Positions 25,649-41,872 of a stretch of 64,000 nt of DNA are shown in pieces. A program made the translations under genes and the position numbers. This stretch comes from Azospirillaceae bacterium (GTDB taxonomy: Bacteria > Pseudomonadota > Alphaproteobacteria > Azospirillales > Azospirillaceae). The stretch spans positions 1 to 64,000 of the forward strand of contig JARLIO010000083.1 of the NCBI GenBank assembly GCA_031291675.1. The letters are read 5' to 3'. Each line of letters starts with the position of its first letter. Position 1 is the first letter of the stretch. Under the pieces are notes generated by a model, which made no database searches, was not told the origin of the DNA, and saw only the letters and a program-made list of their open reading frames with translations.

Positions 25649-26083
25649 TTATGATGGCAAAGCCGTGAAGGGGTCGAGCGCGGGCACGTCCAATGGTTTG
25701 AAATGCCGGAGATTGCGGGTCAAGATCGTCAGGCCGTGATACTTGGCGGTCGCCGCGATGGCGATGTCGGCGAAACCCGGTGCCTTGCCCTGTGCCCGCG
25801 CCCGGTCGGAAAGCATTCCGGCCACCCGTGCGGCGGCCGTGTCGAACGGCAGGATGCGGCTGCCGTAAAGATGCAGCAGCGTCTCCAGCCAAACCGTCAG
25901 ATCCGCGGCCTTGCGCGTCGCCCCTTCGCGGCGCAGCTTGGCGATGCCGTCCTCGATTTCCGCCACCGTCACCGCCGAGAGGAAAAGCGCCGGCGAATGC
26001 TCGTCCATCCAGGCAATCAGTTCCGCCGGCGCGACACGCGACGGGGCGCCGGCCGACAGGATGTTGGTATCGACCAGGTACAA
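25649..26083 (-). CDS. PIN-domain toxin (VapC/FitB-type)
   Basis: A 144-aa PIN-fold ribonuclease toxin. Acidic active-site residues are visible: LVDTN at the N-terminus, TVAEIEDGI in the middle and GFADIAIAATA in the C-terminal half, followed by ILTRNLRHF. The start is a TTG at 26083, 7 bp after the antitoxin stop, so the two are co-translated. Together they form a type II toxin-antitoxin system. Confidence 0.9.
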   Translation of the reverse strand: MYLVDTNILSAGAPSRVAPAELIAWMDEHSPALFLSAVTVAEIEDGIAKLRREGATRKAADLTVWLETLLHLYGSRILPFDTAAARVAGMLSDRARAQGKAPGFADIAIAATAKYHGLTILTRNLRHFKPLDVPALDPFTALPS

Positions 26084-26090
26084 GGGGCGG

Positions 26091-26369
26091 TCAGAAGCCG
26101 GCGTCGCGCAACGGCGCTTTGTTCCGCGCCGGCGGATCGTCCGGCGCCAGCGGCGCGCTCATCAGTAGATGGCCGAAAGAGGGCACTTGTGACAGGCGCT
26201 CCCATTCGGCGAAGCTCACAATCACGGCCTCCCGTTTGCCGTGGCGGGTGATAATGGCTGGTTCGCCGCATACCGCATCATCGACCACTGCCGACAGGCG
26301 GGCCTTGGCGTCCCGAAGTTGGATTTCGCGCGTAATAGCCTCCCGCAACCATGTGACTATTGTAGTCAT
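26091..26369 (-). CDS. Phd/YefM-family antitoxin
   Basis: A 92-aa antitoxin. The family core is EIQLRDAKARLSAVVDDAV followed by EPAIITRHGKREAVIVSFAEWERL; the C-terminal third is disordered and Pro-rich, as expected of the toxin-binding tail. ATG 26369 is taken, but a perfect palindrome overlaps this start, so a TTG at 26348 is also possible. The toxin gene follows. Confidence 0.85.
   Translation of the reverse strand: MTTIVTWLREAITREIQLRDAKARLSAVVDDAVCGEPAIITRHGKREAVIVSFAEWERLSQVPSFGHLLMSAPLAPDDPPARNKAPLRDAGF
26354..26368. promoter_or_regulatory. Candidate autoregulatory operator of the toxin-antitoxin pair
   Basis: Perfect palindrome TGACTA-TTG-TAGTCA exactly at the antitoxin start. Phd-type antitoxins repress their own promoter through short palindromes at this position, so this is the probable operator. 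Confidence 0.55.
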
Positions 26370-26517
26370 ATATGATCCCAGGCCGCTTTGAAAGCAAGCC
26401 GGCGTGGCGTCGGAACGCAGGTCTCGCCCCTTGCGGGCCGCGGCGGCGATCGCCGCCGATCCCAACCGGCGACGCATAACATCGCTGATGCCGGGATCTG
26501 CGGTGCTGCCCCAAGGC

Positions 26518-27084
26518 CTACGGCTTGCTGACTTCCAGCTTGCCCAGATCATAACCCTTGCCCTGCAGGCGCCCCAGCAGAGCCTGATAGGCCACAGGGT
26601 CGACCGTCGGCGTCCGCGACAGGATCCAAAGATAGGCGCGCCGGGGTTCGCTGACCGCGGCCAGTTGATAGCCGGGGTCAATGTCGATCACCCAATAGTC
26701 GCCCCAGACGGTGGGAAGCCAGCCCAGCCACCAGGGCGCAAACCGGACCTCCAGCCTGGCCGAGGTCGGGCCGCCGCTTTGCCGCGCCGCCCCCACCGCC
26801 TGGTCCATGTCGCCGTTGGCCAGTCGGCACCGGTTGACCACTTTGACCGCGCCGTCCGGTTCCAGGCTGTAGGTGGCGCTGGTCCCGCCGGCGCAGTTGC
26901 GCTGGAACCGGTTGGGATATTTGGCGATTTCGTACCAGGTGCCCAGATAGCGCGGCAGGTCCAGCGTTTCGATGGCGGTCAAGGCGCCCGGGTTGGTTTG
27001 CGGGCCCGGCGACGACGCGCAGCCGCTCACGCTGGTCAGCAGGCCGACCAGGACGGCGATTCGGAACGGATTTGGCAACGGCAC
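26518..27084 (-). CDS. blc: Lipocalin-family lipoprotein (Blc-like)
   Basis: A 188-aa outer-membrane lipocalin. The signal peptide ends in the lipobox VSGCASS; the lipocalin signature GTWYEIAKYPNRFQRNC follows, with later strands containing WVIDIDPGYQLAAVSEP and YLWILSRTP. It probably binds lipids or fatty acids in the envelope. It lies alone between the antitoxin and the HNH gene. Confidence 0.92.
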   Translation of the reverse strand: MPLPNPFRIAVLVGLLTSVSGCASSPGPQTNPGALTAIETLDLPRYLGTWYEIAKYPNRFQRNCAGGTSATYSLEPDGAVKVVNRCRLANGDMDQAVGAARQSGGPTSARLEVRFAPWWLGWLPTVWGDYWVIDIDPGYQLAAVSEPRRAYLWILSRTPTVDPVAYQALLGRLQGKGYDLGKLEVSKP

Positions 27085-27154
27085 TCTCCCTGGGGTCGAA
27101 ATCCTGTCCTCCGTTGGCGGTTCGGGCGCGGCTTGCCAAGGGCGGGGGCGGTCT

Positions 27155-28063
27155 TCAACCCTTGAAACGAAATTCCCGATGCCAGCGCAGAAACTGCGGG
27201 TGCGGCAGTTGGTCGGCGCGTTCCGGCCGCAACAGAAGCCGGTCGGGCGTGATCATCCGTTGTACCGGGTCCGGCACCTTTCCCGGTGCCAGCAGCAGGC
27301 GGTATTCGTCGTCAAGGGACACGAGGCCCCGGTCAAACATCCAATGAAGCGTGCCACAGAGTGCGATCCCGTTGCGAACCGAATCGGGTCCGGATTCCGC
27401 GACGGGACGAATATGGGCGGCCTGGACCTCGCTTCGCCCGCCGCCATTGATGATCTTCAGACCGGTCATGGCACAGGTGTCGCCATAGGCCGCCTTGATC
27501 ATCCCGGAGAACGCGTCATCGCGGAACGGCCTTGCAATGATGCGCTCGACAATCGGTCGTTCGAATGTCGCCGGTTCCTCGGCGAACCCCGGCATCGAAT
27601 AGGCGTCTCCGGGCCTGTCGGCCGCAGGCGCCGCGATCACGGGCGCGAAGCCGGCTTGCGCGATCCTGTCATATTCGCCCGGCGACAAGGGGCGGACGGC
27701 GCGGCCAAAGGCGCCCTTGTTGGTCTTGCCATCATCCCGTTGCAGGGCGGATTCGTAATAAAGCCGGCCCTCCTGGAATGGAACCGGCCGAACGAACTCC
27801 AGATAGTCTTTAATCTTCGCGTAAAAATGGTCGGAGTGGACCGTATCTGGCTCGATATCGACAATGCGGGCCGTCGCGAAATAGGCCTGACGGCCGCCGC
27901 GGCTCGACAGGTTGCCCGAAGAACGCCGCGGTTCGTAATAGACGATGAAATCCCCCAGCGCCGCTTCGACCTGCCGCAGATAGGTGCGCGGGAAGTGATA
28001 GCGCTGTTCGGGGAGATCATCGTAACTCGGTTCGACTTTCGTGGTGAGCACGGCCTTGGTCAT
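27155..28063 (-). CDS. HNH endonuclease (COG3440-like), 34 bp downstream of cas6e
   Basis: A 302-aa protein whose N-terminal two-thirds resemble the DNA-binding half of predicted restriction endonucleases (PRTYLRQVEAALGDFIVYYE). The C-terminus is an HNH nuclease domain: CAMTGL, the metal/catalytic AAHIRP, RNGIALC and the final LHWMFDRGLVSL. All HNH residues are present, so it should be active. It follows cas6e by 34 bp on the same strand and has no separate promoter that I can see, so it probably belongs to the Cascade transcript. Whether it serves CRISPR immunity or is an independent defence gene is unknown. Confidence 0.82.
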   Translation of the reverse strand: MTKAVLTTKVEPSYDDLPEQRYHFPRTYLRQVEAALGDFIVYYEPRRSSGNLSSRGGRQAYFATARIVDIEPDTVHSDHFYAKIKDYLEFVRPVPFQEGRLYYESALQRDDGKTNKGAFGRAVRPLSPGEYDRIAQAGFAPVIAAPAADRPGDAYSMPGFAEEPATFERPIVERIIARPFRDDAFSGMIKAAYGDTCAMTGLKIINGGGRSEVQAAHIRPVAESGPDSVRNGIALCGTLHWMFDRGLVSLDDEYRLLLAPGKVPDPVQRMITPDRLLLRPERADQLPHPQFLRWHREFRFKG

Positions 28064-28097
28064 GATCCACCGCTGGCCGCAGCAAATGAAACCGGCC

Positions 28098-28889
28098 TCA
28101 CCGCGCCACGGGCCGCAGCAACAGCATGCCGAATCCGAAGGCCCGGTGGCGGCCGACGCCGCGCGCCACTGTGGCGGCGAACAGCGCGCTGTCGGTGACC
28201 GTCAGCAGCCCTTCAAACAGCGCATCGGGCTTCTGGATCGATATCAGCGGCCGCGGCGACTCCTTCGGCCCTGTGCCGCGGCGGGAGATGTCGCTGTGAC
28301 GGAATCCTGCCAGCCGCACCGCGGTGACCGCCGCGCCGGGGATCCGTGTTGTCAGCCACTGGCCATAGACCGCCTGACGATCGACGAAGGGCCGTTCCGT
28401 GTCGTCCGTACCCGCCGCGGCCGCTTCAGCCTCGGCCTGGTCGATGGCGGCCAGGAAGGCGTCGACCTCCGCCCCTGGATGCTTGCGGGTCGCCCCCCGG
28501 GCCATCCGGATCGTCGGGCAGGCACGCACCTGAAATCCCAGCGCCATGCCGGCCGGCAAGGGCAGGGGCATGCGTTTGTCTGCCGCATCGACCCAGTCGA
28601 TCGCGGCCAGGGGCACCGGCAGGGCGGTCAGTTCGGCGGTGGCGCGCAGGGCCTCCAGCGGGTGGTGGCTGTAAGCCAGCAGGTCGATGGCCCCTGGCGT
28701 TCCGGCCCGCGGCCGGATCGCAAAGGGCTGCGGCGCCATCGCGCCGAACAGCGCTGTCAGCAGGGCATGGCCGACATAGCCGCCGTCGCCCCGGGTCAGG
28801 TCGGCGGACAGCGACTGGCTGGCGGCAAAGGCGGCCAGACGCCGGTTGTCCAGGGGCAACTGGACCATGGACAGTGCCGCCGCGGCCAT
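28098..28889 (-). CDS. cas6e: Type I-E CRISPR pre-crRNA endonuclease Cas6e (CasE)
   Basis: Cuts the repeat hairpin and stays bound to the crRNA 3' hairpin in Cascade. 263 aa. The N-terminal ferredoxin fold has the conserved DGGYVGHALLTALFG (catalytic His region); the C-terminus has the glycine-rich GVGRHRAFGFGMLLL. ATG 28889 shares one base with the cas5 stop (TGATG); the frame continues upstream but that part antisenses nothing conserved and overlaps cas5. Confidence 0.9.
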   Translation of the reverse strand: MAAAALSMVQLPLDNRRLAAFAASQSLSADLTRGDGGYVGHALLTALFGAMAPQPFAIRPRAGTPGAIDLLAYSHHPLEALRATAELTALPVPLAAIDWVDAADKRMPLPLPAGMALGFQVRACPTIRMARGATRKHPGAEVDAFLAAIDQAEAEAAAAGTDDTERPFVDRQAVYGQWLTTRIPGAAVTAVRLAGFRHSDISRRGTGPKESPRPLISIQKPDALFEGLLTVTDSALFAATVARGVGRHRAFGFGMLLLRPVAR

Positions 28890-29656
28890 CAGAGGCTGTC
28901 CGTGCGGTTCAGGCGGCCTTGATGGACGATGCGCTCGCCGCCATGGCTCTGGTTGCGCCAGTCGCGCCGGTCGAACACCGCTTCGCGATGGCTGAACGTT
29001 CCGGCGCCGGGCTCGTCTTCGGGCCATTGGGCGTCGAGCGCGGTCCATCGGGCCGCCGCGCTCTCGTGGGGCTGGGGTGGCAGGCCCTGGGACAGCAGGG
29101 TTTGCGCCGCCGCGAACAGGGTCACGGCCTGGACGGTCCCGACGCCGATGAAATCGCTGGGCAGGCAGGGTTTGCGGCCGATGAACAAGGGTCGCGCCGG
29201 TTGGCGCAGCGCTGCCAGCAGGTCGGCGACCGTCGGCAGCTCGTCGGCGTCGAGCAGACGCAACAGGACGATCACGGTGGTTTCGACGCGATAGTCGCGC
29301 AGCCGGATATGGGTTTCCCGGGTCGCCGCACCGCTGCCCCGGCCTTCGCGCCGGCCGCGGGTGGTCCAGCCGGTCCCGTTCATGAAGGGCAGGCCGAGAT
29401 CCACGGTCTGGAAATCGGTCAGCCTTTCTCCGGTGGTGCCGAGTTCCAGGCACAGCGGGCGCAGCCGCGCCTGCAACCGGGTCAACGCGGCGGCATCGCC
29501 ATGGCGCCAGCCCAGCGCGTTGCCCAGCAGGCCCGCCAGTTGCGACAGGCCGGGGAACCGGCCGGTCGGGCCGTTCTGATCGATCATCGGCCCGCCGAAC
29601 GCCATCAGGGGCGCCTGCAACCGCAGGATCAGGATGTCCATCACAGTGCCGGTCAT
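28889..29656 (-). CDS. cas5e: Type I-E Cascade subunit Cas5e (CasD)
   Basis: Binds the 5' handle of crRNA. 255 aa from ATG 29656, which overlaps the cas7 stop by ATGA; ATG 29641 (MDILILRLQAPL) is the alternative. Family marks: LQAPLMAFGG, then GPTGRFPGLSQLAGLLGNAL and the glycine-containing RPLFIGRKPCLPS. Confidence 0.93.
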   Translation of the reverse strand: MTGTVMDILILRLQAPLMAFGGPMIDQNGPTGRFPGLSQLAGLLGNALGWRHGDAAALTRLQARLRPLCLELGTTGERLTDFQTVDLGLPFMNGTGWTTRGRREGRGSGAATRETHIRLRDYRVETTVIVLLRLLDADELPTVADLLAALRQPARPLFIGRKPCLPSDFIGVGTVQAVTLFAAAQTLLSQGLPPQPHESAAARWTALDAQWPEDEPGAGTFSHREAVFDRRDWRNQSHGGERIVHQGRLNRTDSL

Positions 29657-30882
29657 GGTGCCGCGGCGCCGACCGTGTCGGCAACCCAGGTGGCCAGGGC
29701 GTCCAGGCCGGGCGCGGCCACCGCCGGGATGCCGTCGATCGCGTCGAGGCTGGCGACCCGCCGCTGTTCGCCCGCGCCATACATCGCGTCGAACCGCGTA
29801 AGATAGCGGGCGATCCGGCTGGTCGCGGCCAGCCAGACATCGCCGTCGCCCGCACTGGCGCGCACCGGCTTCAGGAAGGCATTGGCCAGGGTGCGCGGTT
29901 GGCGGTTGCCCAGCTCCACCAGGACGGTCTGGGCATAGGCATAAGGCGCGGTCGACCCCAGTTTGGCGCCGGGTGATGTCGCGGCGATCAGATGGATCAG
30001 CCGTTGCAGTAATGCGGTCGCCAGATGCCGGTCGGCGGTCTCCCACCCGGTTGGATCGCAGCCCTCGAGATTGGCGACCAGCAGCGGCAGATCGACGACG
30101 ACATAGCCGTAGAACAGGCCGCTGGTCAGTTCGCTGTCGCCCATCATGCCGCTGCCCAACTCGCCGGCGGCACGCTCCAGCTCGTCGACGGCGGTGAAGA
30201 ATTCGGGTTCGCTCTCTTCGGCATGGACGGTAAAGCTATGGGCGACATGCACCGCGGCGTCACCGCGCGCCAGGATGTCGGAGGTCACCATTCGGCCGAA
30301 CAAGGCGGCGTCCAGGCCGGCGGCCAGCCGCAGGGACTCCAGATTGGCCCGGTTGCTCTTGTCCTTCAGATAGGCGTCGACCGCCTTGCGCGCCTCCTTG
30401 GCCGGGGTCGCCTGTTGCAGCAGCGTCCGGGCGGCGTCGCGGATGAAGTCGACCTCCGGCTGTCCCAGCACCAGCACCTGGCCGGTCTTGAGAGCCTCCA
30501 GCCCGGTGTCGTCATCCGCGGCCGCCGCTTTGCCCTTGGCTTTCTCGGCCTTGGCTTTGGCGCTTTCGCCCAACAGGGCGGCCTGGAAACCCTCGACCAC
30601 GGCGCGGATCGCCGCGTCGTCGAAGCCCTCGGCCTGCAACGGCGCGGCGATGAGGCGTACGAAGGTCTGGCGGGAGCGGACGGACATCGGCACCGCCAAC
30701 CCGGCCAGCGACCAGTCCCCCGCGACGGTGCGCCAGTGCCGCTTGAGGCATTGTGATGACACCCGGGTCCGGTTGACGCCGCCGAAGGGCAGGCGCTTGG
30801 CCCGGCCGACATCATCGCGGTTCAGCAGGGCGGCGGCGTAGGGCGTCAGCGTGTGGATCTGCAAGAAACGGGGAAGCGTCAT
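29653..30882 (-). CDS. cas7e: Type I-E Cascade backbone subunit Cas7e (Cse4/CasC)
   Basis: Six copies of this protein form the crRNA-binding spine of Cascade. 409 aa with the N-terminal FLQIHTLTPYAAALLNRDD, GGVNRTRVSSQCLKRHWR, and AYAQTVLVELGNRQPRTLANAF. An Ala/Lys-rich stretch (about residues 105-125, AKAKAEKAKGKAAAADDD) is a local insertion. It overlaps cse2 and cas5 by 4 nt on each side. Confidence 0.95.
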   Translation of the reverse strand: MTLPRFLQIHTLTPYAAALLNRDDVGRAKRLPFGGVNRTRVSSQCLKRHWRTVAGDWSLAGLAVPMSVRSRQTFVRLIAAPLQAEGFDDAAIRAVVEGFQAALLGESAKAKAEKAKGKAAAADDDTGLEALKTGQVLVLGQPEVDFIRDAARTLLQQATPAKEARKAVDAYLKDKSNRANLESLRLAAGLDAALFGRMVTSDILARGDAAVHVAHSFTVHAEESEPEFFTAVDELERAAGELGSGMMGDSELTSGLFYGYVVVDLPLLVANLEGCDPTGWETADRHLATALLQRLIHLIAATSPGAKLGSTAPYAYAQTVLVELGNRQPRTLANAFLKPVRASAGDGDVWLAATSRIARYLTRFDAMYGAGEQRRVASLDAIDGIPAVAAPGLDALATWVADTVGAAAP

Positions 30883-31436
30883 GCTTCATCTCCGGCAAGC
30901 GCGGTTTCGGTGACGACGGTGGGCGCCGCCGGTTGGAAATAGGACCGGGCCAGACGCAGCACGGCGCGATCGGCCCGCTCCGGATCGCCGGCCTGACGGG
31001 CCAGGATCAGGGCGGCCAGATCGGTCCAGTCGAAGCCCAGCCCCTTGGCGAGGCACCAGCGGCTGAGTGTCCGCACCTCGGTTGCCAGGGCTTCGCCGCT
31101 GCCGCGCAGCAGGCGGACGAAGCGTCCTTCGGGATAGCCGGAGTCGGCCAACGCCCGGCCGGCACGGCGTCCGCCCTGGTGGGCCTCCGGGCCCATCATC
31201 GCCATGGCCTGGACGATGATGGCCCAGGCGCGTTCCGTGCTCTCGCCCTTGGCTTCCGGGTCAACCACCTCGAAGAACAGCGGCCAGAACGCGGGGGGCG
31301 GGACGCCCAGCGGGTCCATCCGGCGCAACTGCGCCAGCGGGCCGGTGCCGAGCCGTTCCTTGCGCAGCACCTGCGACAGGGCGAACACGATACCGTCCAG
31401 TTTCTTACGGACCGCGGTCCCGGCGATTTCCGTCAT
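30879..31436 (-). CDS. cse2: Type I-E Cascade small subunit Cse2 (CasB)
   Basis: All-helical subunit (185 aa) present as a dimer along the Cascade belly. It shows the usual LAQLRRMDP motif and WAIIVQAMAMMGPEAHQ, with KGLGFDWTDLAALIL in the C-terminal half. It overlaps cse1 by 4 nt (ATGA) and cas7 likewise. Confidence 0.92.
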   Translation of the reverse strand: MTEIAGTAVRKKLDGIVFALSQVLRKERLGTGPLAQLRRMDPLGVPPPAFWPLFFEVVDPEAKGESTERAWAIIVQAMAMMGPEAHQGGRRAGRALADSGYPEGRFVRLLRGSGEALATEVRTLSRWCLAKGLGFDWTDLAALILARQAGDPERADRAVLRLARSYFQPAAPTVVTETALAGDEA

Positions 31437-32950
31437 GCGGCGTCCTTCTCCGGTTCATCGGGTTGCGGCAGGGGCAGGTTCTTGAACAGCACGGCGCGGA
31501 ACACCGTCTCGGCCAGCGCCAGATTGTGTTCGCGCCGGCCCACCGGGGGTGACAGGCGGGCGCAGCCGAGGCAGAACGCGCGCTTCGCCTCATCATGCAG
31601 CATCTTGCGCCATGTCAGGTCGGCATCGTCGCGCGCCTCGTCCGAACCGGCGTCGACATGGCGCCATAGATGGTCGAAGAACTCGCGATCGATCGCGTCG
31701 GTCAGGGTTGCGACGAAGGGGCGTTCCCGCTTGTCCTCGAAATTGATTTTGTCGGACCGGCCCTGCAACAGGGCCAGCAGCGCCATCCGCACCGCCCGGG
31801 TCGCGGCGCGGGCATTGTTCAGCATGTCGCCGGCCCGGCGATGGATCAGTTGGCGCTGGTCGTCGAGGAACAGCCGGTTCATGCGGTCGGGCCGGACCGG
31901 CAGGATCCGGTCGTGCAGCCCCTCGGTCCTGCCCTGGCCGCGGACCAGGGCGGACAGGTGAACCCACAGCTCCTCGGGATCATCGGCGAAGGGTTGCACC
32001 GACGGGCACAGCTTGAAGGTATCGCCGGCGAACAGCAGATCGGCGACCTTGTCGTAGCGGAAGCCTTCCGCGGAGACGGTATAGGCGCCCCCGGTCGACA
32101 GGTTGACCGGCGTCCAGGGATCGTCCATCACGCCTTTTCGGTCCTTGGCGTCGACCCGCATGACGTCGCTGGGCCGGCCCCAGGCGGTGACCTGTCCGGC
32201 GGGATCGCGGCGCAGGCGGACGCGGCGGCAGATCTCGATGAAGGCGGGGTCAAGATCGGGCACGGCGAGGCTATCCTCCCGATCCCAGGCCGTCAGCCAC
32301 AGCAACCGCCCGGCCGCGGGTCCGAAGCTGAAGCCGGCGCCCTGGGCGCGCAAGAGGTGGCGCTGACGCAACGCGACCCGGACGCCCCAGCGCAGGCCAG
32401 GCACCAGCTCGACCAGCGGCCGGCTGCCGAAACCGCCATTCATGCGGGCAATGCCGAAATTGCCCCGGCCAAGATAGCCCTGGCCGGTTTGCAGGCTGAT
32501 CAGGGCATAAAGCCAATGATGCGGCGCCGCGGCGCCCAGGCGCGCCTGCTTGACGTCATGATTTTTGGCGGTGATCAGCACATCGATGCCGTCGGGGGTC
32601 GTGGCGATCGGTTGCAACCGCGCCGCCGCCGCCGGATCGCGCACCGGCGGCTGCAACAAAGCGGGCTTGTCGTCATCGGCAAGCAGCGCCCAGGCGGTAT
32701 CGGCACCGTCCGGGGTCAGATCGCGCAGTCGGGCGCGCCAAGTGTCCGCGTCGTCGGGCAGCGCGTCGTCTGGTCCCTGGTCGCCTTGTGCCAGGGTTGC
32801 GAGCTGCACCAGAAACAGGAACCAGGATTGCCGCTGGTGCGGCGCCAGCCCTTCGAAACCGTCCACATCATCGGCGCTCAGCGCCGCCAGAAGCGCGGGC
32901 AGCGACAGCGCGACGATCTGGAGAAGCTGTTCTTCGGCGAAATCGTACAC
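31433..32950 (-). CDS. cse1: Type I-E Cascade large subunit Cse1/Cas8e (CasA), N-terminus possibly interrupted
   Basis: Recognises the PAM and recruits Cas3. 505 aa from GTG 32950. Diagnostic segments are APHQRQSWFLFLVQLATLA, LITAKNHDVKQARLG, GFGSRPLVELVP and the C-terminal helical bundle ending near FCLGCARLSPPVGRRE. Upstream in the same frame is ATG 32989 followed by TCC TTC TTC TGA; continuing past that stop gives KPPCRIGP and then the present protein. The canonical N-terminus (an F-L-x-E-P-like block) would fit exactly there, so the gene may carry a nonsense mutation at codon 5 and be re-initiated at the GTG. Confidence 0.88.
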   Translation of the reverse strand: MYDFAEEQLLQIVALSLPALLAALSADDVDGFEGLAPHQRQSWFLFLVQLATLAQGDQGPDDALPDDADTWRARLRDLTPDGADTAWALLADDDKPALLQPPVRDPAAAARLQPIATTPDGIDVLITAKNHDVKQARLGAAAPHHWLYALISLQTGQGYLGRGNFGIARMNGGFGSRPLVELVPGLRWGVRVALRQRHLLRAQGAGFSFGPAAGRLLWLTAWDREDSLAVPDLDPAFIEICRRVRLRRDPAGQVTAWGRPSDVMRVDAKDRKGVMDDPWTPVNLSTGGAYTVSAEGFRYDKVADLLFAGDTFKLCPSVQPFADDPEELWVHLSALVRGQGRTEGLHDRILPVRPDRMNRLFLDDQRQLIHRRAGDMLNNARAATRAVRMALLALLQGRSDKINFEDKRERPFVATLTDAIDREFFDHLWRHVDAGSDEARDDADLTWRKMLHDEAKRAFCLGCARLSPPVGRREHNLALAETVFRAVLFKNLPLPQPDEPEKDAA

Positions 32951-33044: not shown

Positions 33045-35653
33045 CTATTTGGATGTTTCGTCGGGGGCGCGTCTCAATCCCATCCGGTCATAGACCAGTG
33101 TTGCGGTGTCGAAATCCAGGGTCACGGTGCCGGCCTCGGCGTGAATGCGGGGCTCCGACTCCAGGGGTTCGCGGCGCAGCAGATGGGCCGGGACGGCCAG
33201 GGCGCTGATCGGGGTGCCGAACGGGCCGAGGGTGCCGGGGGGCAGCTCGACCCGGCGGTCCTGTTCCCCCAGTCTTGTGGTCACGCGGGTTACCGCCTCG
33301 CCGTCATTCTCCAGCGCCTGCGGATTCCATTGCAGCCAATCCAGCGTGACGGTGCGGGCCAGGGCCCGGTTTCGGCGCCGTCCAGCCGCTGCGCCAGCGG
33401 TCTTAAGGCGTCCGGGTGGGTGATCGCCTCGACCAGGGCGCGGTTGACGGTCGGAACCGGCAGCACCGGGGTTTGTCCGAGCTGTTCCAGCGTCGCGGCC
33501 AGGGCCAGCAGCGCGCGGTACACCGTGCCCGCGCCGGCCGGGGTGATCAGACCCGCCAGCGACTCGAGGGCCGGCGCCAGGATCAGGGCGCGGGGTCTGG
33601 CACAGTCGGGGGGGCGCCCGGGGCGTTCCCGGCGGTGCAGCCGCCCGAGCCGCTGCAACAGCACGTCGGCGGGACACAGGTCGGCATCAATGTCGAGGCT
33701 TTGTTCGGCAGTCTGCGTCGTCACCGCAATCATGCCGCCCGGCGACCGCTCGCCGCCGAAGGCCTTTTCCAGTTCGGCGTCGAGCCGGATCCGGTCTTCA
33801 GCGGCAAAGCGTGCATGATGGGGCGACGGGATCTCGCCAATGCGCAACAGCAGGGTCGGGTCGGGGCAGGCCTGCTCGACCAGGGTCTGGGTGGCCATGG
33901 CATCGCGGACGGTATTGCGCAGGATCAGCACATGGGCGCCGGTCCGTGCCGCGGCGACGGCGGTCCGCACCAGCGCGTCCAGGGCGGAAAGCGGGTGCTG
34001 TTCGACCGTGATGTTTTTCGGGGGGCGTTCCCCGTCCGTCGCCGGGGTTGTCGCGGTGTCCGGCCGCCCGTGCAGGCAGGGATAGGGCACGGTCCGGGCT
34101 GCGGCCAGCGGCAGCGTCACGCCGCCGCGATCGGTCAGGCGCGTCCGCGCCACGGCGCCCAGCGTTGCCGACATCAGCAGCGTGGAACCGCCGGCGGCGC
34201 GGTGCTGGTCCAGGACATGGCCCAGCAGCTCCGTCATGTAGGGATCGCTGGCGTGGACTTCATCAATCACCAGCAGTTGGCGCAGCATCGCCGCCGAGCG
34301 GAACGGGGCATGGCGCACCGGCAACCCGGCGAGCAGCAACTGATCGATCGTGCCGACCATCACCGGCCCGGCGAGATAGCGCAGATTGTGCGCCGCGGCC
34401 CAGCGCCGGTCATCGATCCGCGGCGTGTCACCGTCGGGCCAGGCAACGCGAAAGCCGGGCAGGCGCTGGCCGTCGGCGTCATCGACCCGCAGATAGCCGG
34501 GCACCGCCAGCCCCACCGGCGGGGCCGCGTCACCCAGCGCCGCGCGCAGCAGCGTGCTGATGCGGCGCTGGATCTGCACCGCGGAGGCGCGGGTCGGCAG
34601 GGCGAAATAGAGCCCGTCAACCTGCCGGTGGCGCAGCAGTTTCAGGAACAGGGCGATCGCCGCCTCGGTCTTGCCGCTGCCGGTCTCCGCCTCCAGCACC
34701 AGCACGGTTCCCGGGGCGTGGCGGTCGGCGTCAAGGTCGATCATGGCGGCCTGCATCGGCCGGGGTTGCCAGCCCCGTGCCGCCGCCTCGGGGAACAGGG
34801 TGGCAAAATTCCAGACCAGGGCGGCCGCCCGGGACTGACGCAGGCCGGCATCGAGCGCACGCCCCCGCATCATCACCGCCGCCTGCCGGCACGACTCCGC
34901 AAAGCGGTCATCGCGGGGGGCGTCCAGGGCCGCGACCGGCATCAGTGGAAACGCTCCGACATCCGAGCCCAGCCAATCGGCCCAGACCGTCAATCCGGCC
35001 ACGGCGTAACACAGCCGGGAATTGACCGGCAGCGGCGCCGCGGTTTCGCTGAACGCGTCGGGAAACCAATGCCGGACCCGGGTCGACAGATCGTCGAGCG
35101 CGGCCAGCGGGTCATAGCCCGTCTTGTCGGCGGTCCAATCCGCCATCAGCACCGGGGCCGGGGTTGGGTTGAGCCGGCCATGATGGGCGAGGATCCCCGT
35201 CAGAAGGTCCTCAAGCCCCCCGGTTCCGGCAAACCAGTCGATCAGGGTTGGCAGCATCATGGCGGTGGTGACGCGGCTGCGGACGCGCCGCTGGGCCGGG
35301 CTCGCGGGTTGGGCGTGCAACAGGGCGACCAGCGGCCCGATATGGCCGCCGCCCGTGCCCTCGCCGCGGATCCGCTTCTGGAACCGGGCGGTGACTTTGC
35401 CGGTGTCGTGCAGTGCCGCCAGAACACATAGCCGCGCGCAAGTGACCGGGTCCAAATCGCCGTCCACGCCGATCAAAGCCGCCAGGCGGCGGCGAATCGT
35501 CGGTTGTGCCAGCAGGGTCTGAAACACGGCAGCGACGTCGGCGCAATGGTCGGCCAACGTCAGGACGAGCATCGTGCCATCCGCGGCACGGTCGGTTTTG
35601 CCCAGGGCGACCGCGGCCGGGGGCCGCTTTTCGCCGTCTTTCCAGGAATCCAT
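33045..35653 (-). CDS. cas3: Type I-E CRISPR nuclease-helicase Cas3, frameshifted near the 3' end
   Basis: HD nuclease plus superfamily-2 helicase that degrades DNA marked by Cascade. HD residues: LADHCADV (H36), LAALHDTGK (H82-D83), LAHHGR (157-158) and ADWLGSD. Helicase motifs: ETGSGKTE (322-330), IDEVHASD (463-470), MSATLG (494-499), QRLGRLHRR (667-675). The 5' frame ends at 33290 with about 23 unrelated residues; the true C-terminal domain (from RTVTLDWLQWNPQ to ETSK) continues in another frame to the stop at 33045. One extra base, or a deletion of 3n+1 bases in this sequence, would explain it, at about 33365-33395. The joined length (about 870 aa) is close to E. coli Cas3. Confidence 0.88.
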
Positions 35654-35745
35654 GAAAACGCTACCCGTAATGGGATTGTTGTGCTACGGTTACGCACGTA
35701 TTGAATCTCTGACAAGTGAATTTTTTCAAATGTTTACGGTCTAGA
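35654..35745 (+). promoter_or_regulatory. Leader of CRISPR array 1, shared with the cas3 promoter region
   Basis: The 92 bp between the cas3 start and the first repeat. It contains GACAAGTGAATTTT at 35711-35724 and TTACGGTCTAGA immediately before the repeat, both also present in leader 2 at the same distances. Between them, TTTCAAATGTTTA (35724-35736) fits the IHF consensus at 8 of 9 defined positions. On the minus strand the same motif gives TTGTCA, a possible -35 for cas3. Confidence 0.7.
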
Positions 35746-36017
35746 GGCTCCCCCGTATGCGCGGGGATGGACCCCTCGTTGCGGGAGATCCTCCCGGAGA
35801 TATTTGGGCTCCCCCGTATGCGCGGGGATGGACCGCAGGTTGAGAAAACAACAATCAAGCGGCATGCGGCTCCCCCGTATGCGCGGGGATGGACCCCTTA
35901 GGAAGGCCAACATCTGTGGCGTCGACCTGGCTCCCCCGTATGCGCGGGGATGGACCCTGCCGCAGCGTCTCGTACTCCAACTCGAATCGGGCTCCCCCGT
36001 ATGCGCGGGGATGGATC
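35746..36017 (+). CRISPR. CRISPR array 1 (type I-E, 5 repeats, 4 spacers)
   Basis: 28-bp repeats start at 35746, 35807, 35868, 35929 and 35990, a strict 61-bp period with 33-nt spacers. Each begins GGCTCCCCCGTATGC and ends GCGGGGATGGACC. A 6-bp stem CCCCGT/GCGGGG (with one T-G wobble) closes an ATGC loop. The last repeat has ...GGATC in place of ...GGACC, marking the trailer end, so the leader lies to the left and transcription is on the plus strand. By analogy with E. coli the 5' handle would be ATGGACC plus one spacer base. Confidence 0.97.
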
Positions 36018-36225
36018 TCTGCTGATTTTCTCCAACGCGCGCTTGACGATTGTGGCCCGAGCATAGCGCTTTGATGTCATCGGCAGACCGTCGATGATCA
36101 TCGAGTCGGTCCTGGCGCACCTTGAACACGGCGAACCGATAGTCCGAATTGAGGAAGCTGTGAGGTCAAATACAACCTTTACCTTTGGGTTGACCTGCTG
36201 AAACAGTGAATGAAGGGAAGGGGCC

Positions 36226-36657
36226 ATGCCAAACGCGCTTTACGATACCGACTTCTATGCCTGGGCCAACGAACAGGCCGCGCTGTTGCGCGCCGGAAAT
36301 CTTTCGGCTGCGGATATCGAGAACATCGCCGAGGAAATCGAGAGCATGGGTCGCACGGAGAAACGCGAACTGGTCAACCGGCTGACGATGCTGTTGCTGC
36401 ATCTTCTGAAATGGCGATTCCAACCCGGGCTTCAGGGGGCGTCATGGCGCGCGACGATCAAGGTCCAGCGCCGCGATCTGGCACGCCACCTGAAAGACAA
36501 TCCGAGCCTGAAGGCCACGGTGCCCGAAGCTATTGCCGACGCGTACGGTGACGCCGTGATCCAGGCCGCCGCCGAAACGGGACTTCCGGAAAGCACCTTT
36601 CCGGTAGCCTGTCCGTGGTCATTCGACCAGGTGACGGATCCGGATTTCTGGCCATAG
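36226..36657 (+). CDS. DUF29 family protein
   Basis: A 143-aa protein of the DUF29 family, recognised by YDTDFYAWANEQAALLRAG at the start, the helix NIAEEIESMGRTEKRELVNRL, then HLLKWRFQPG and the late ECxxxYPWSFDQ-like region, here FPVACPWSFDQVTDP. DUF29 proteins are small, helical and of unknown function. The start has AAGGGAAGGGG before it. It sits between array 1 and cas2 on the opposite strand to the cas genes, so it is an independent gene inside the locus. Confidence 0.88.
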   Translation: MPNALYDTDFYAWANEQAALLRAGNLSAADIENIAEEIESMGRTEKRELVNRLTMLLLHLLKWRFQPGLQGASWRATIKVQRRDLARHLKDNPSLKATVPEAIADAYGDAVIQAAAETGLPESTFPVACPWSFDQVTDPDFWP

Positions 36658-37969: not shown

Positions 37970-38063
37970 GTCAGTTTCTTCTCGTAATCCGCGTAATTCC
38001 CTGATATCTATACGCCTGTGTTTTCTTCGACAAGTGAATTTTGTCAGCACCTTACGGTCTAGA
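37970..38063 (+). promoter_or_regulatory. Leader of CRISPR array 2, shared with the cas1 promoter region
   Basis: Holds GACAAGTGAATTTT at 38029-38042 and TTACGGTCTAGA just before the first repeat, at the same 35-bp and 12-bp distances as leader 1. An IHF-like TGTCAGCACCTTA is at 38042-38054. On the minus strand TTGTCG followed 15 bp later by TATAGA could be the cas1-cas2 promoter. Confidence 0.7.
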
Positions 38064-38518
38064 GGCTCCCCCGCACGCGCGGGGATGGACCTTGTCACCC
38101 AGAGACTCCAGTGACAGCATCGCCGGCTCCCCCGCACGCGCGGGGATGGACCCTGGAGCGCATCGTCGGAACCAGACTGTTCAATGGCTCCCCCGCACGC
38201 GCGGGGATGGACCTTACGACAAGCGCCCAATGCGTAAGCCAACGCAGGCTCCCCCGCACGCGCGGGGATGGACCCGGTCGGGTCGTGCCGGTTCGTCTAT
38301 AACCTGTGGCTCCCCCGCACGCGCGGGGATGGACCCGACGCCAAGCGCTTCGCCCAGCGTCACCGGGGGGCTCCCCCGCACGCGCGGGGATGGACCCTTC
38401 TTGAGCGGGTCGAGGCCGCCAAGAGAACGGGCTCCCCCGCACGCGCGGGGATGGACCTGTCGGCAGAGACACGGCTGGCAACCTCATTGCGGCTCCCCCG
38501 CACGCGCGGGGACGAACC
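38064..38518 (+). CRISPR. CRISPR array 2 (type I-E, 8 repeats, 7 spacers)
   Basis: 28-bp repeats start at 38064, 38125, 38186, 38247, 38308, 38369, 38430 and 38491 (61-bp period, 33-nt spacers). Each begins GGCTCCCCCGCACGC and ends GCGGGGATGGACC, differing from array 1 at positions 11 and 13 (C,C instead of T,T). The stem CCCCGC/GCGGGG is fully paired around an ACGC loop. The terminal repeat is degenerate (GACGAACC instead of GATGGACC), so the array reads left to right from the leader. I saw no match of any spacer to this window by eye. Confidence 0.97.
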
Positions 38519-38678
38519 CCTGTCATAACTTACGATAATAAGGCCGAGGGGCATCGGCGCTCGCCGCCCCATCGCGGCCCCGGCCGCGTTTCGGGCCAAT
38601 TTTTCGATTGAAATTGCCGTGGCGCCGGTTCATTGCCAGAAGGCGAAACTTCACCTCTGACACGGCGGGATCGGTGGC

Positions 38679-40062: not shown

Positions 40063-40962
40063 TCAGGCCGGTTCGCGGAACGCCGGGGCAAAGCCGAGCA
40101 GGCTGTCGACCTGGGCGCGGATTTCGCGTTCGACCGCTTTGTCGAGCTTGCGCAGCCAGCGCGGGGGAATAGCCCGGACGCCATAGGTGGCGCCGGCCAG
40201 CATGCCGGCGATGGCGCCGGTGGTATCGGCGTCGCCGCCTTGATTGACAGTCTCGACGATGCAGGATTCGATGCTGTCGGTTTCGAAATAATAGTGCAGG
40301 ACCGTTTGCATCGTGTCGACGATGTAGCCCGTCGATAATTGGGGATAGGGGCTGAAGCGGAATTTCCGGTTCTGCTCGACCAACTGGTTGGCGAGGATCC
40401 GGCACGCCTTGATGCCACCGCCCAGGATCAGGCTGCGGATCATGTGGCCCAGCGCCAGTGTCGCCATGTCGGACAGCGGGTTGTTGTGGGTGATATGGGC
40501 CTGTTCCAGGGTTTGGCGGGTGAATGCTGCGTCATCGCCCAGGGTGGCCAGACAGACCGGCAGATTGCGCATCGCGGCGCCGTTGCCGGCACTGGCCTCG
40601 TGGGGCGGCGATTCCAGCGTGCCATGGATGATGTAGGCGCGGATGCCCCGGCGCGTCGTGTCGCCGACATCGGCAGGAACCCCGCGCAGCCACGCCGCAA
40701 ATTCGTCGGCGACCGCGGTCAGGTTCCAGAGGCCCCCGGTGGCGATCAGGGCGCGGCCGATGCACAGGCTCATCTCGGTGTCGTCGGTGACCTGTCCGGG
40801 TGCCAGCCGCAGCCAGCCGCCGCCCTTGAGATGTTGATGAACGCCATGGTCGCGGGTGATTTCGCTGCGCGTCATGAATTCGACAGTGGCACCGAGAGCG
40901 TCGCCGCAGGCGAGGCTCAGATAGGCGCCCAGTGCCCGCTCGCGGATCCCGTCATCGATCAT
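40063..40962 (-). CDS. draG: Dinitrogenase reductase-activating glycohydrolase
   Basis: ADP-ribosylglycohydrolase (299 aa) that removes ADP-ribose from the arginine of NifH and restores nitrogenase activity. Close to R. rubrum DraG in layout: ERALGAYLSLACGDALGATVEFMT, GGGWLRLAPGQVTDDTEMSL (metal-binding DD), ITHNNPLSD, and TVNQGGDADTTGAIAGMLAGA (second metal site). It lies 28 bp after draT, so the pair is one unit. Confidence 0.95.
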   Translation of the reverse strand: MIDDGIRERALGAYLSLACGDALGATVEFMTRSEITRDHGVHQHLKGGGWLRLAPGQVTDDTEMSLCIGRALIATGGLWNLTAVADEFAAWLRGVPADVGDTTRRGIRAYIIHGTLESPPHEASAGNGAAMRNLPVCLATLGDDAAFTRQTLEQAHITHNNPLSDMATLALGHMIRSLILGGGIKACRILANQLVEQNRKFRFSPYPQLSTGYIVDTMQTVLHYYFETDSIESCIVETVNQGGDADTTGAIAGMLAGATYGVRAIPPRWLRKLDKAVEREIRAQVDSLLGFAPAFREPA

Positions 40963-40990
40963 GGGCTGAGCAATTTTGGTGATGATCGCA

Positions 40991-41872
40991 TCATAGCACC
41001 GATACCGTAACGCGATAATCGCCGCCGATCACCAGGAATTCGCCTTCGCCGGCAAATGGGTAGCGCGGCAGTAGCTCACGGAAGAACAGCAGCTTGACCA
41101 GAGGGACGCGGGCTTCAAGAATATGGTCGCCGAACTGGCCGGCAATGTCGCGGTCCTCGGTGAAGGAAACCAGATTGTTGAGCCGCAGCACCGCGGTGCG
41201 CCGGTCGGGACGCGCCAGGATCGGGTGTTCGTCAAAGTCGTTGACGCCGCGATACAGCGTCCGATGCGCGCCGCTGGCGACGATGCGCCAGGCGCTGTGC
41301 AGCGACCACTGGCAAAACTCGTAGAGCAGATCGAGTTGCAGGGCGATCATGTTGTTGGAAAAGCGCGATGACAGCTTCTCCTCGACATAGGCCATGGTCC
41401 GTTCGTCGGACAGGCGCCGCAGCGGGCCCTTGTGATAGGTGGGCATCAGGCCAAAGCGGCTTTCGACCCAGCCCTTCAGGACCGCGCCTTCGGTGCTGTT
41501 GGCATCGAACATCCAGCCCTTGAGCAGGCGCAGATAGCTGGCACGGAAGCGGCGGCGTCCGTCGGGACCGTCGCGACCGCTGAAATCGGGCGACAGCTCG
41601 AACCGGTGCGCCATGTAGTTCTGGAACACGGTCGCGGCCTCATCGGCGGAAACGGCCAGTTCCAGGGCGCCGAACAGCTCGGCATGGGTCGAGCGGGTGC
41701 CGGCGATGTGCAGCGCCGTGGGCTCGTCGTTGAAGGCGGCGCTGCCGAGATGGGCGGTCGGGACCTTGACCAGATTGCTGCGAAACCCGCGCGCCGGATG
41801 GGGCGGCGGCTCGTCAAAAGCCGGATTGGCAGGGACGTCTTCCGGGGCGGCACGGTCGGTGGTGTCGGGCAT
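40991..41872 (-). CDS. draT: NAD+-dinitrogenase-reductase ADP-ribosyltransferase
   Basis: ADP-ribosylates nitrogenase reductase in response to ammonium or darkness/energy loss. 293 aa with family blocks FRSNLVKVPTAHLGSAAFND, SPDFSGRDGPDGRRRFRASY, LKGWVESRFGLMPTYHKGP, HRTLYRGVNDFDEH and NNLVSFTEDRDIAGQFGD. The N-terminal 30 residues are a variable Pro-rich region. draG follows; no nifH is next to it, unlike some relatives. Confidence 0.95.
   Translation of the reverse strand: MPDTTDRAAPEDVPANPAFDEPPPHPARGFRSNLVKVPTAHLGSAAFNDEPTALHIAGTRSTHAELFGALELAVSADEAATVFQNYMAHRFELSPDFSGRDGPDGRRRFRASYLRLLKGWMFDANSTEGAVLKGWVESRFGLMPTYHKGPLRRLSDERTMAYVEEKLSSRFSNNMIALQLDLLYEFCQWSLHSAWRIVASGAHRTLYRGVNDFDEHPILARPDRRTAVLRLNNLVSFTEDRDIAGQFGDHILEARVPLVKLLFFRELLPRYPFAGEGEFLVIGGDYRVTVSVL

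Follow-up and report, generated by a model that had tools for sequence, protein, structure and literature searches.

VcaM4I is an enzyme of 309 residues in which an EVE domain (residues 1-147) is joined by a linker helix (148-178) to an HNH domain (179-309). Its flipped-base pocket involves P24, W82 and Y130; alanine changes at H224, D250 and D254 drastically impair the enzyme, N241 being of little weight; and its EVE domain is itself called distant from known EVE domains (PMC7897488, in the portions available). A second HNH enzyme of interest here, TagI, is named as an SRA-HNH enzyme in a title cited by PMC8989522. HNH domains are also found inside subunits of Cascade, namely in the Cas5-HNH (type I-E) and Cas8-HNH (type I-F) systems, which are CRISPR-linked and from which cas3 is mostly absent, with rare remnants (PMC10910872, in part). 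Proteins of another architecture, PIN-GNAT-EVE, are reported near CRISPR-Cas (PMC7641849, in part), and the available portions of two papers that bear on EVE-HNH proteins and CRISPR (PMC7641849, PMC8989522) hold no description of an EVE-HNH protein within a type I-E operon.

Here a candidate for such an arrangement is analyzed within a 64,000-nucleotide stretch of DNA from an Azospirillaceae bacterium (termed the window). On the minus strand of the window lie, in order, cas1 and cas2 and then cas3, cse1, cse2, cas7e, cas5e and cas6e, accompanied by two CRISPR arrays whose extents, as defined by their repeat families, are 35741-36021 and 38059-38522. The features from cas3 onward, with the basis of each assignment in brackets, are these:

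33045..35653, minus strand: cas3, its frame interrupted near the C-terminus as assembled (ORFs, Pfam; one frame in five relatives)
31433..32950, minus strand: cse1 (cas8e) (NCBIfam below threshold, PADLOC; HNH domain match absent)
30879..31436, minus strand: cse2 (cas11e) (Pfam, NCBIfam, PADLOC)
29653..30882, minus strand: cas7e (Pfam, NCBIfam)
28889..29659, start approximate, minus strand: cas5e (Pfam, NCBIfam; HNH domain match absent)
28098..28889, minus strand: cas6e (Pfam, NCBIfam, PADLOC)
28064..28097, minus strand: intergenic stretch of 34 bp separating cas6e from the HNH gene (scan for sigma-70-like sequences across this region: no match)
27155..28063, minus strand: gene for the putative EVE-HNH protein, 302 aa, complete, with an ATG start (ORF, PF13391, 20-sequence alignment)
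27632..28063, minus strand: predicted N-terminal EVE-type (PUA-like) domain, residues 1-144 (AlphaFold model and structure comparison)
27158..27538, minus strand: predicted C-terminal HNH nuclease domain, about residues 176-302, with H217, N231, H240 and D244 as active-site candidates (domain model, fold, profile alignment to 6yex)
26518..27084, minus strand: lipocalin gene after the HNH gene (PF08212; this order also in locus L048)

Within the operon, Cas6e scores above the Pfam cut-off and slightly below that of NCBIfam (43.6 of 45.2 bits); Cse1 has no Pfam match and does not reach the cut-off of NCBIfam (50.6 of 70.05 bits), and is clear as Cas8e in PADLOC (426.6 bits). A reading of this DNA made from the sequence alone (termed here the sequence-only reading) had called cas3 damaged, and this is borne out for the window as assembled, where the gene falls into two frames that overlap (33290-35653 and 33045-33677). 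The HD and helicase matches both fall in the first of these; hence the displacement is confined to the C-terminal part. Five relatives were examined (L084, L086, L087, L090 and L091), and each has cas3 as a single frame, of 885-970 aa.

Several further observations concern the CRISPR region. The repeats of the two arrays are nearly identical, differing at two positions, and the arrays also have adjoining sequence in common (85% over 68 nt, including a repeat). One array and a DUF29 gene (36226-36657, plus strand) occupy the region between cas2 and cas3 (35741-36657), unlike in L090 and L091, where about 80 bp separate cas2 from the cas3 match. Elsewhere in the same genome there is a second, divergent type I-E locus (L081; G000:C56:12446-13396), with cas3, cas7e, cas6e and cas1 matches and a CRISPR array.

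The sequence-only reading had a complete HNH protein encoded on the strand of cas6e, 34 bp beyond that gene, and the ORF at 27155-28063 confirms this. This frame contains a Pfam HNH_2 match (PF13391, E 1.6e-11) and has full-length homologues, and it is therefore no chance ORF. Its GC3 is 0.73, as against 0.80-0.86 for the window cas genes read in frame, cas5e left out. A promoter scan of positions 26900-29000 gave 0 matches where 0.3 were expected, a null that is weakly informative because the genome is GC-rich. The 34-bp spacing and the lack of a promoter match are as expected of a co-transcribed gene and count against a stand-alone reading; transcripts of the cas operon may read through into the HNH gene.

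With cas3 broken, one might suppose from this position that Cascade uses the protein as an accessory or substitute nuclease, which would act in trans at the R-loop as a two-piece counterpart of Cas5-HNH. The close spacing on one strand without a separate promoter match, the broken frame of cas3 and the existence of Cas5-HNH systems, most of them without cas3, all speak for this, and the locus does resemble Cas5-HNH and Cas8-HNH Cascade in that an HNH nuclease is encoded with a type I operon. It differs from them, however, in that the HNH protein is a separate ORF of another HNH branch and lies beside cas genes once; window Cas5e and Cse1 have no match to an HNH domain. Unlike most HNH-Cascade systems, moreover, the window has a long cas3, in which the HD and helicase matches still share one frame; the presence of cas3 alone decides little, because rare cas3 remnants have been reported in HNH-Cascade (PMC10910872, in part). 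Also against this explanation is that the HNH protein appears to have an EVE-type domain of its own.

The evidence for that domain comes from predicted structure. The full-length AlphaFold model is mediocre (mean pLDDT 64.7) and poor in much of the HNH part; within residues 1-144, however, 11 of 14 ten-residue blocks have a pLDDT of 79-91, the weaker stretches being around 11-20 and 41-60. Structure comparison of the full-length model matches this N-domain to PH1033 (Z 12.8, rmsd 2.8, 129 residues aligned), to MJECL36 (Z 11.8), to 2eve (Z 10.5, rmsd 2.6, 118 aligned), to human THYN1 (Z 10.0) and to an archaeal McrB N-domain (Z 9.7), with ASCH and YTH domains following from Z 9.2 downwards. VcaM4I (6yex_A) aligns with the whole model at Z 9.5 (rmsd 14.9, 191 aligned, 13% identity). 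The Pfam EVE family matches none of 20 members of the HNH family, and the assignment of the N-domain therefore rests on the predicted model; NCBIfam gives a sub-threshold match (E 0.065) to PRK02268, which we take to be an EVE family. By its modeled fold, then, the N-domain is a divergent EVE-type domain, and the models show a two-domain architecture of EVE and HNH.

For the C-terminal domain, residues 142-302 were modeled separately (mean pLDDT 76.8, the best of five models ranging from 39.7). This model matches TagI at Z 12.7 and VcaM4I at Z 11.1, after which scores drop to 6.3 (a Cas9), 6.2 (EcoKMcrA), 5.5 (CBASS Cap5) and 4.0 (ScoMcrA); chains of type I-E HNH-Cascade reach only 4.4, 4.0 and 3.9, contrary to what a Cascade nuclease would suggest. 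Foldseek agrees on TagI and VcaM4I as the top two (E 3.8e-06 and 7.8e-06), and a family sequence profile run against the PDB finds TagI (7.7e-09), VcaM4I (4.2e-08) and the modification-dependent enzyme 6ghc (0.051), with nothing else up to E 1. TagI (6ghs) is thus the closest HNH domain both by fold and by profile; the window sensor, unlike the SRA domain of TagI, is EVE-like by fold.

In its overall plan the window protein is like VcaM4I (6yex): each has about 300 residues, with EVE followed by HNH, and the active-site positions align (H217, N231, H240 and D244 with H224, N241, D250 and D254 in the profile alignment to 6yex), the likeness resting on length, domain order and active site. Neither has a metal ligand before the first His, this position being A216 in the window family and, in VcaM4I, a Ser in place of the ligand. 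The two differ at the third moniker position, which is H240 here and D250 there, and the 191 aligned residues are only 13% identical. In an alignment of 20 members, conservation extends along the full length, catalytic positions included. (The alignment comprises the window protein and those from 19 of 30 loci found by a contig scan; the broken or partial L021, L041, L043-L046, L048 and L049 were left out, as were L028, L029 and L031, which are close to other members.)

If the HNH protein were a component of Cascade, then the two might be expected to recur together, and the sequence-only reading had proposed a search for the same cas6e-HNH pair in other genomes. Such a search was run from both sides. 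The 30 scan loci and others drawn from 82 genomes of the family and 385 of the class give 57 HNH loci besides the window (L143 was removed as a duplicate of L020; L029/L042 and L043/L044 were counted apart despite near-identical stretches of 3-4 kb), 8 of which are partial matches (L043-L046, L049 and L144-L146). On the side where cas6e would be expected, upstream of the match, the flank is 96 to 516 bases in L034, L044, L046 and L121, 1.7 kb in L130, 2.0 kb in L132 and at least 2.5 kb in the other 51. The cas queries were of type I-E, other cas types being covered by a scan for CRISPR arrays (exact 21-mers, at least 3 copies). Within these flanks, four of them under 600 bases upstream, neither type I-E cas genes nor CRISPR arrays were found at any of the 57 loci. 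Conversely, a search with the HNH protein found no relative near cas7e at any of the 19 other cas7e loci of the family, which represent 18 other genomes and the second locus of the window's own genome (16 of the 19 cas7e genomes being over the family cut-off). As controls, the window cas proteins found cas genes at all 19 of these loci (tblastn, E 1e-3), a result that is partly circular because the loci were chosen by a cas7e profile, and the array scan detected arrays at all 19. The loci with the closest cas relatives, L084, L090 and L091, have cas6e as their last cas gene and no HNH relative after it.

Nor do the two genes co-occur across genomes more often than expected. Of the 82 family genomes, 15 match the HNH protein to some extent at E 1e-5, 4 contain a full-length match and 19 have cas7e. 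Two combine full-length HNH with cas7e (Fisher P 0.23), namely the window's genome and G076; in the latter the genes are about 290 kb apart. Among the 385 class genomes, 26 carry an HNH relative (E 1e-15 or better) and 13 carry cas7e, with both in the window's genome and in G242, there on different contigs; co-occurrence does not exceed chance whether the window's genome is included (Fisher P 0.22) or not (P 0.56). The recurrent tie to type I cas genes that characterizes HNH-Cascade is therefore not found at 57 HNH and 19 cas7e loci, and homologues of the HNH protein lie mostly away from cas genes, an outcome that the sequence-only reading had itself set against a role in Cascade. Taking neighborhood, co-occurrence and fold together, a Cascade-linked nuclease was rejected as the best reading, and the proposal that the protein supplies nuclease activity to Cascade did not survive these comparisons; we consider it very improbable. 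The juxtaposition with CRISPR genes appears to be peculiar to this locus and not the mark of a novel type of CRISPR machinery.

What surrounds the relatives elsewhere is varied. Ten flanking proteins from six HNH loci were scanned with Pfam: a GDSL lipase and a chaperonin (L020); a HYR protein and one without a match (L023); a MaoC/mesaconyl-CoA hydratase and AtuA (L024); a lipase and a C5 methyltransferase (L025); one protein without a match (L026); and a MarR-like protein, under its cut-off (L050). In Arenimonas composti (L025:10001-12703) a Vsr gene lies between the EVE-HNH relative and the C5 cytosine methyltransferase gene. In L026 a helix-turn-helix gene and then a HipA gene follow the HNH relative. 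An ORF of 737-802 aa, which lies upstream of the HNH relative in the opposite orientation, is common to the rhizobial loci L026, L032, L041 and L042, for which reason the HNH gene may not be solitary in that branch; the L026 copy (L026:7497-9902) has no match in Pfam or PADLOC. In Geminicoccus harenae (L048:10001-11508) a frame-split EVE-HNH relative is followed by a lipocalin gene, with no cas matches. An HNH-lipocalin pair as a unit was rejected, L048 being the only one of the 57 other loci with this order; of the 82 family genomes, 5 have a lipocalin relative (E 1e-20 or better) and four a full-length HNH protein, the window's being the only one with both.

Some relatives are damaged: there is a stop inside L021 and L041, the match is split over two frames in L048 and in L043/L044, and an in-frame deletion in L042 (L042:10001-10843) removes the catalytic His and Asn region. 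The window gene might accordingly be viewed as a decaying or inactive passenger, as these broken copies would suggest; against this, the window copy is full length and retains all four catalytic positions, so that we regard such a state as extremely unlikely.

A different question is what the protein recognizes. It could be a restriction nuclease of another specificity, either of type II and sensitive to methylation or of type IV and sensing phosphorothioates. Its C-terminal HNH is similar to those of phosphorothioate-dependent endonucleases of the NF045808/ScoMcrA type, matching NCBIfam NF045808 (phosphorothioated DNA-binding restriction endonuclease) with 77.7 bits; yet this is far below the cut-off of 180, only residues 179-300 match, and ScoMcrA itself scored just Z 4.0 above. 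As for methylation, the L025 relative adjoins C5 methyltransferase and Vsr genes, and L146, a more distant match to the C-terminal part only, has a C5 methyltransferase about 600 bp away; on the other side, tblastn with the methyltransferases of L025 and L146 found no further one among the 57 loci, two queries making a weak search. Another specificity of this sort thus seems unlikely. Pfam finds no methyltransferase among those proteins of the window on which it was run; there is one match to PF00145 somewhere in the genome as a whole, the window included. Specific sensing of 5mC was also rejected: it predicts that carriers avoid C5 methyltransferases, and this was not found, such enzymes occurring in 12 of 26 genomes that carry the HNH gene versus 131 of 359 others (Fisher P 0.40). 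Given this and the C5 methyltransferase/Vsr neighborhood of L025, general 5mC sensing is not supported.

The sequence-only reading had alternatively suggested a stand-alone, restriction-like gene in a defence island. The island is weak: CRISPR-Cas is present, and the only other candidate nearby is a PIN/Phd-YefM toxin-antitoxin pair (25649-26372), beyond the lipocalin gene, which PADLOC does not list. On the far side of the CRISPR region (40063-41872), an ADP-ribosylglycohydrolase gene adjoins that of dinitrogenase reductase ADP-ribosyltransferase (DRAT), the usual nitrogenase-regulating pair.

The stand-alone gene itself fares better, the EVE and HNH folds, the likeness to TagI and VcaM4I, the lack of a cas link at 57 loci, the lack of excess co-occurrence in the class and the lower GC3 all agreeing with it. 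Judging from the models and by analogy, the HNH gene quite probably specifies a restriction endonuclease of the EVE-HNH, modification-dependent (type IV-like) kind, which works on its own and stands at the end of a type I-E operon by chance. If VcaM4I is a guide, the EVE-type N-domain would bind to DNA at a modified base that is flipped out, and cleavage close by would fall to the HNH domain at the C-terminus, working as a dimer and with a single metal ion. From the same analogy we infer dependence on modification, DNA as the substrate, dimerization and restriction of phages or plasmids.

A further scenario, which we hold to be most improbable, is that, in this lineage only, a type I-E operon with a failing Cas3 has taken the gene of a solitary EVE-HNH enzyme into its transcription unit, where the enzyme would either back up target destruction in trans or couple the sensing of modified bases with CRISPR (for instance, through cut phage DNA being fed to Cas1-Cas2); if true, the locus would be an intermediate towards HNH-Cascade. 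On the preferred reading, a stand-alone restriction endonuclease placed here by chance, one candidate for a new Cas3-less type I-E variant is removed, and the protein would instead represent a divergent, mostly alphaproteobacterial branch of EVE-HNH enzymes whose sensor domain goes unrecognized by Pfam.
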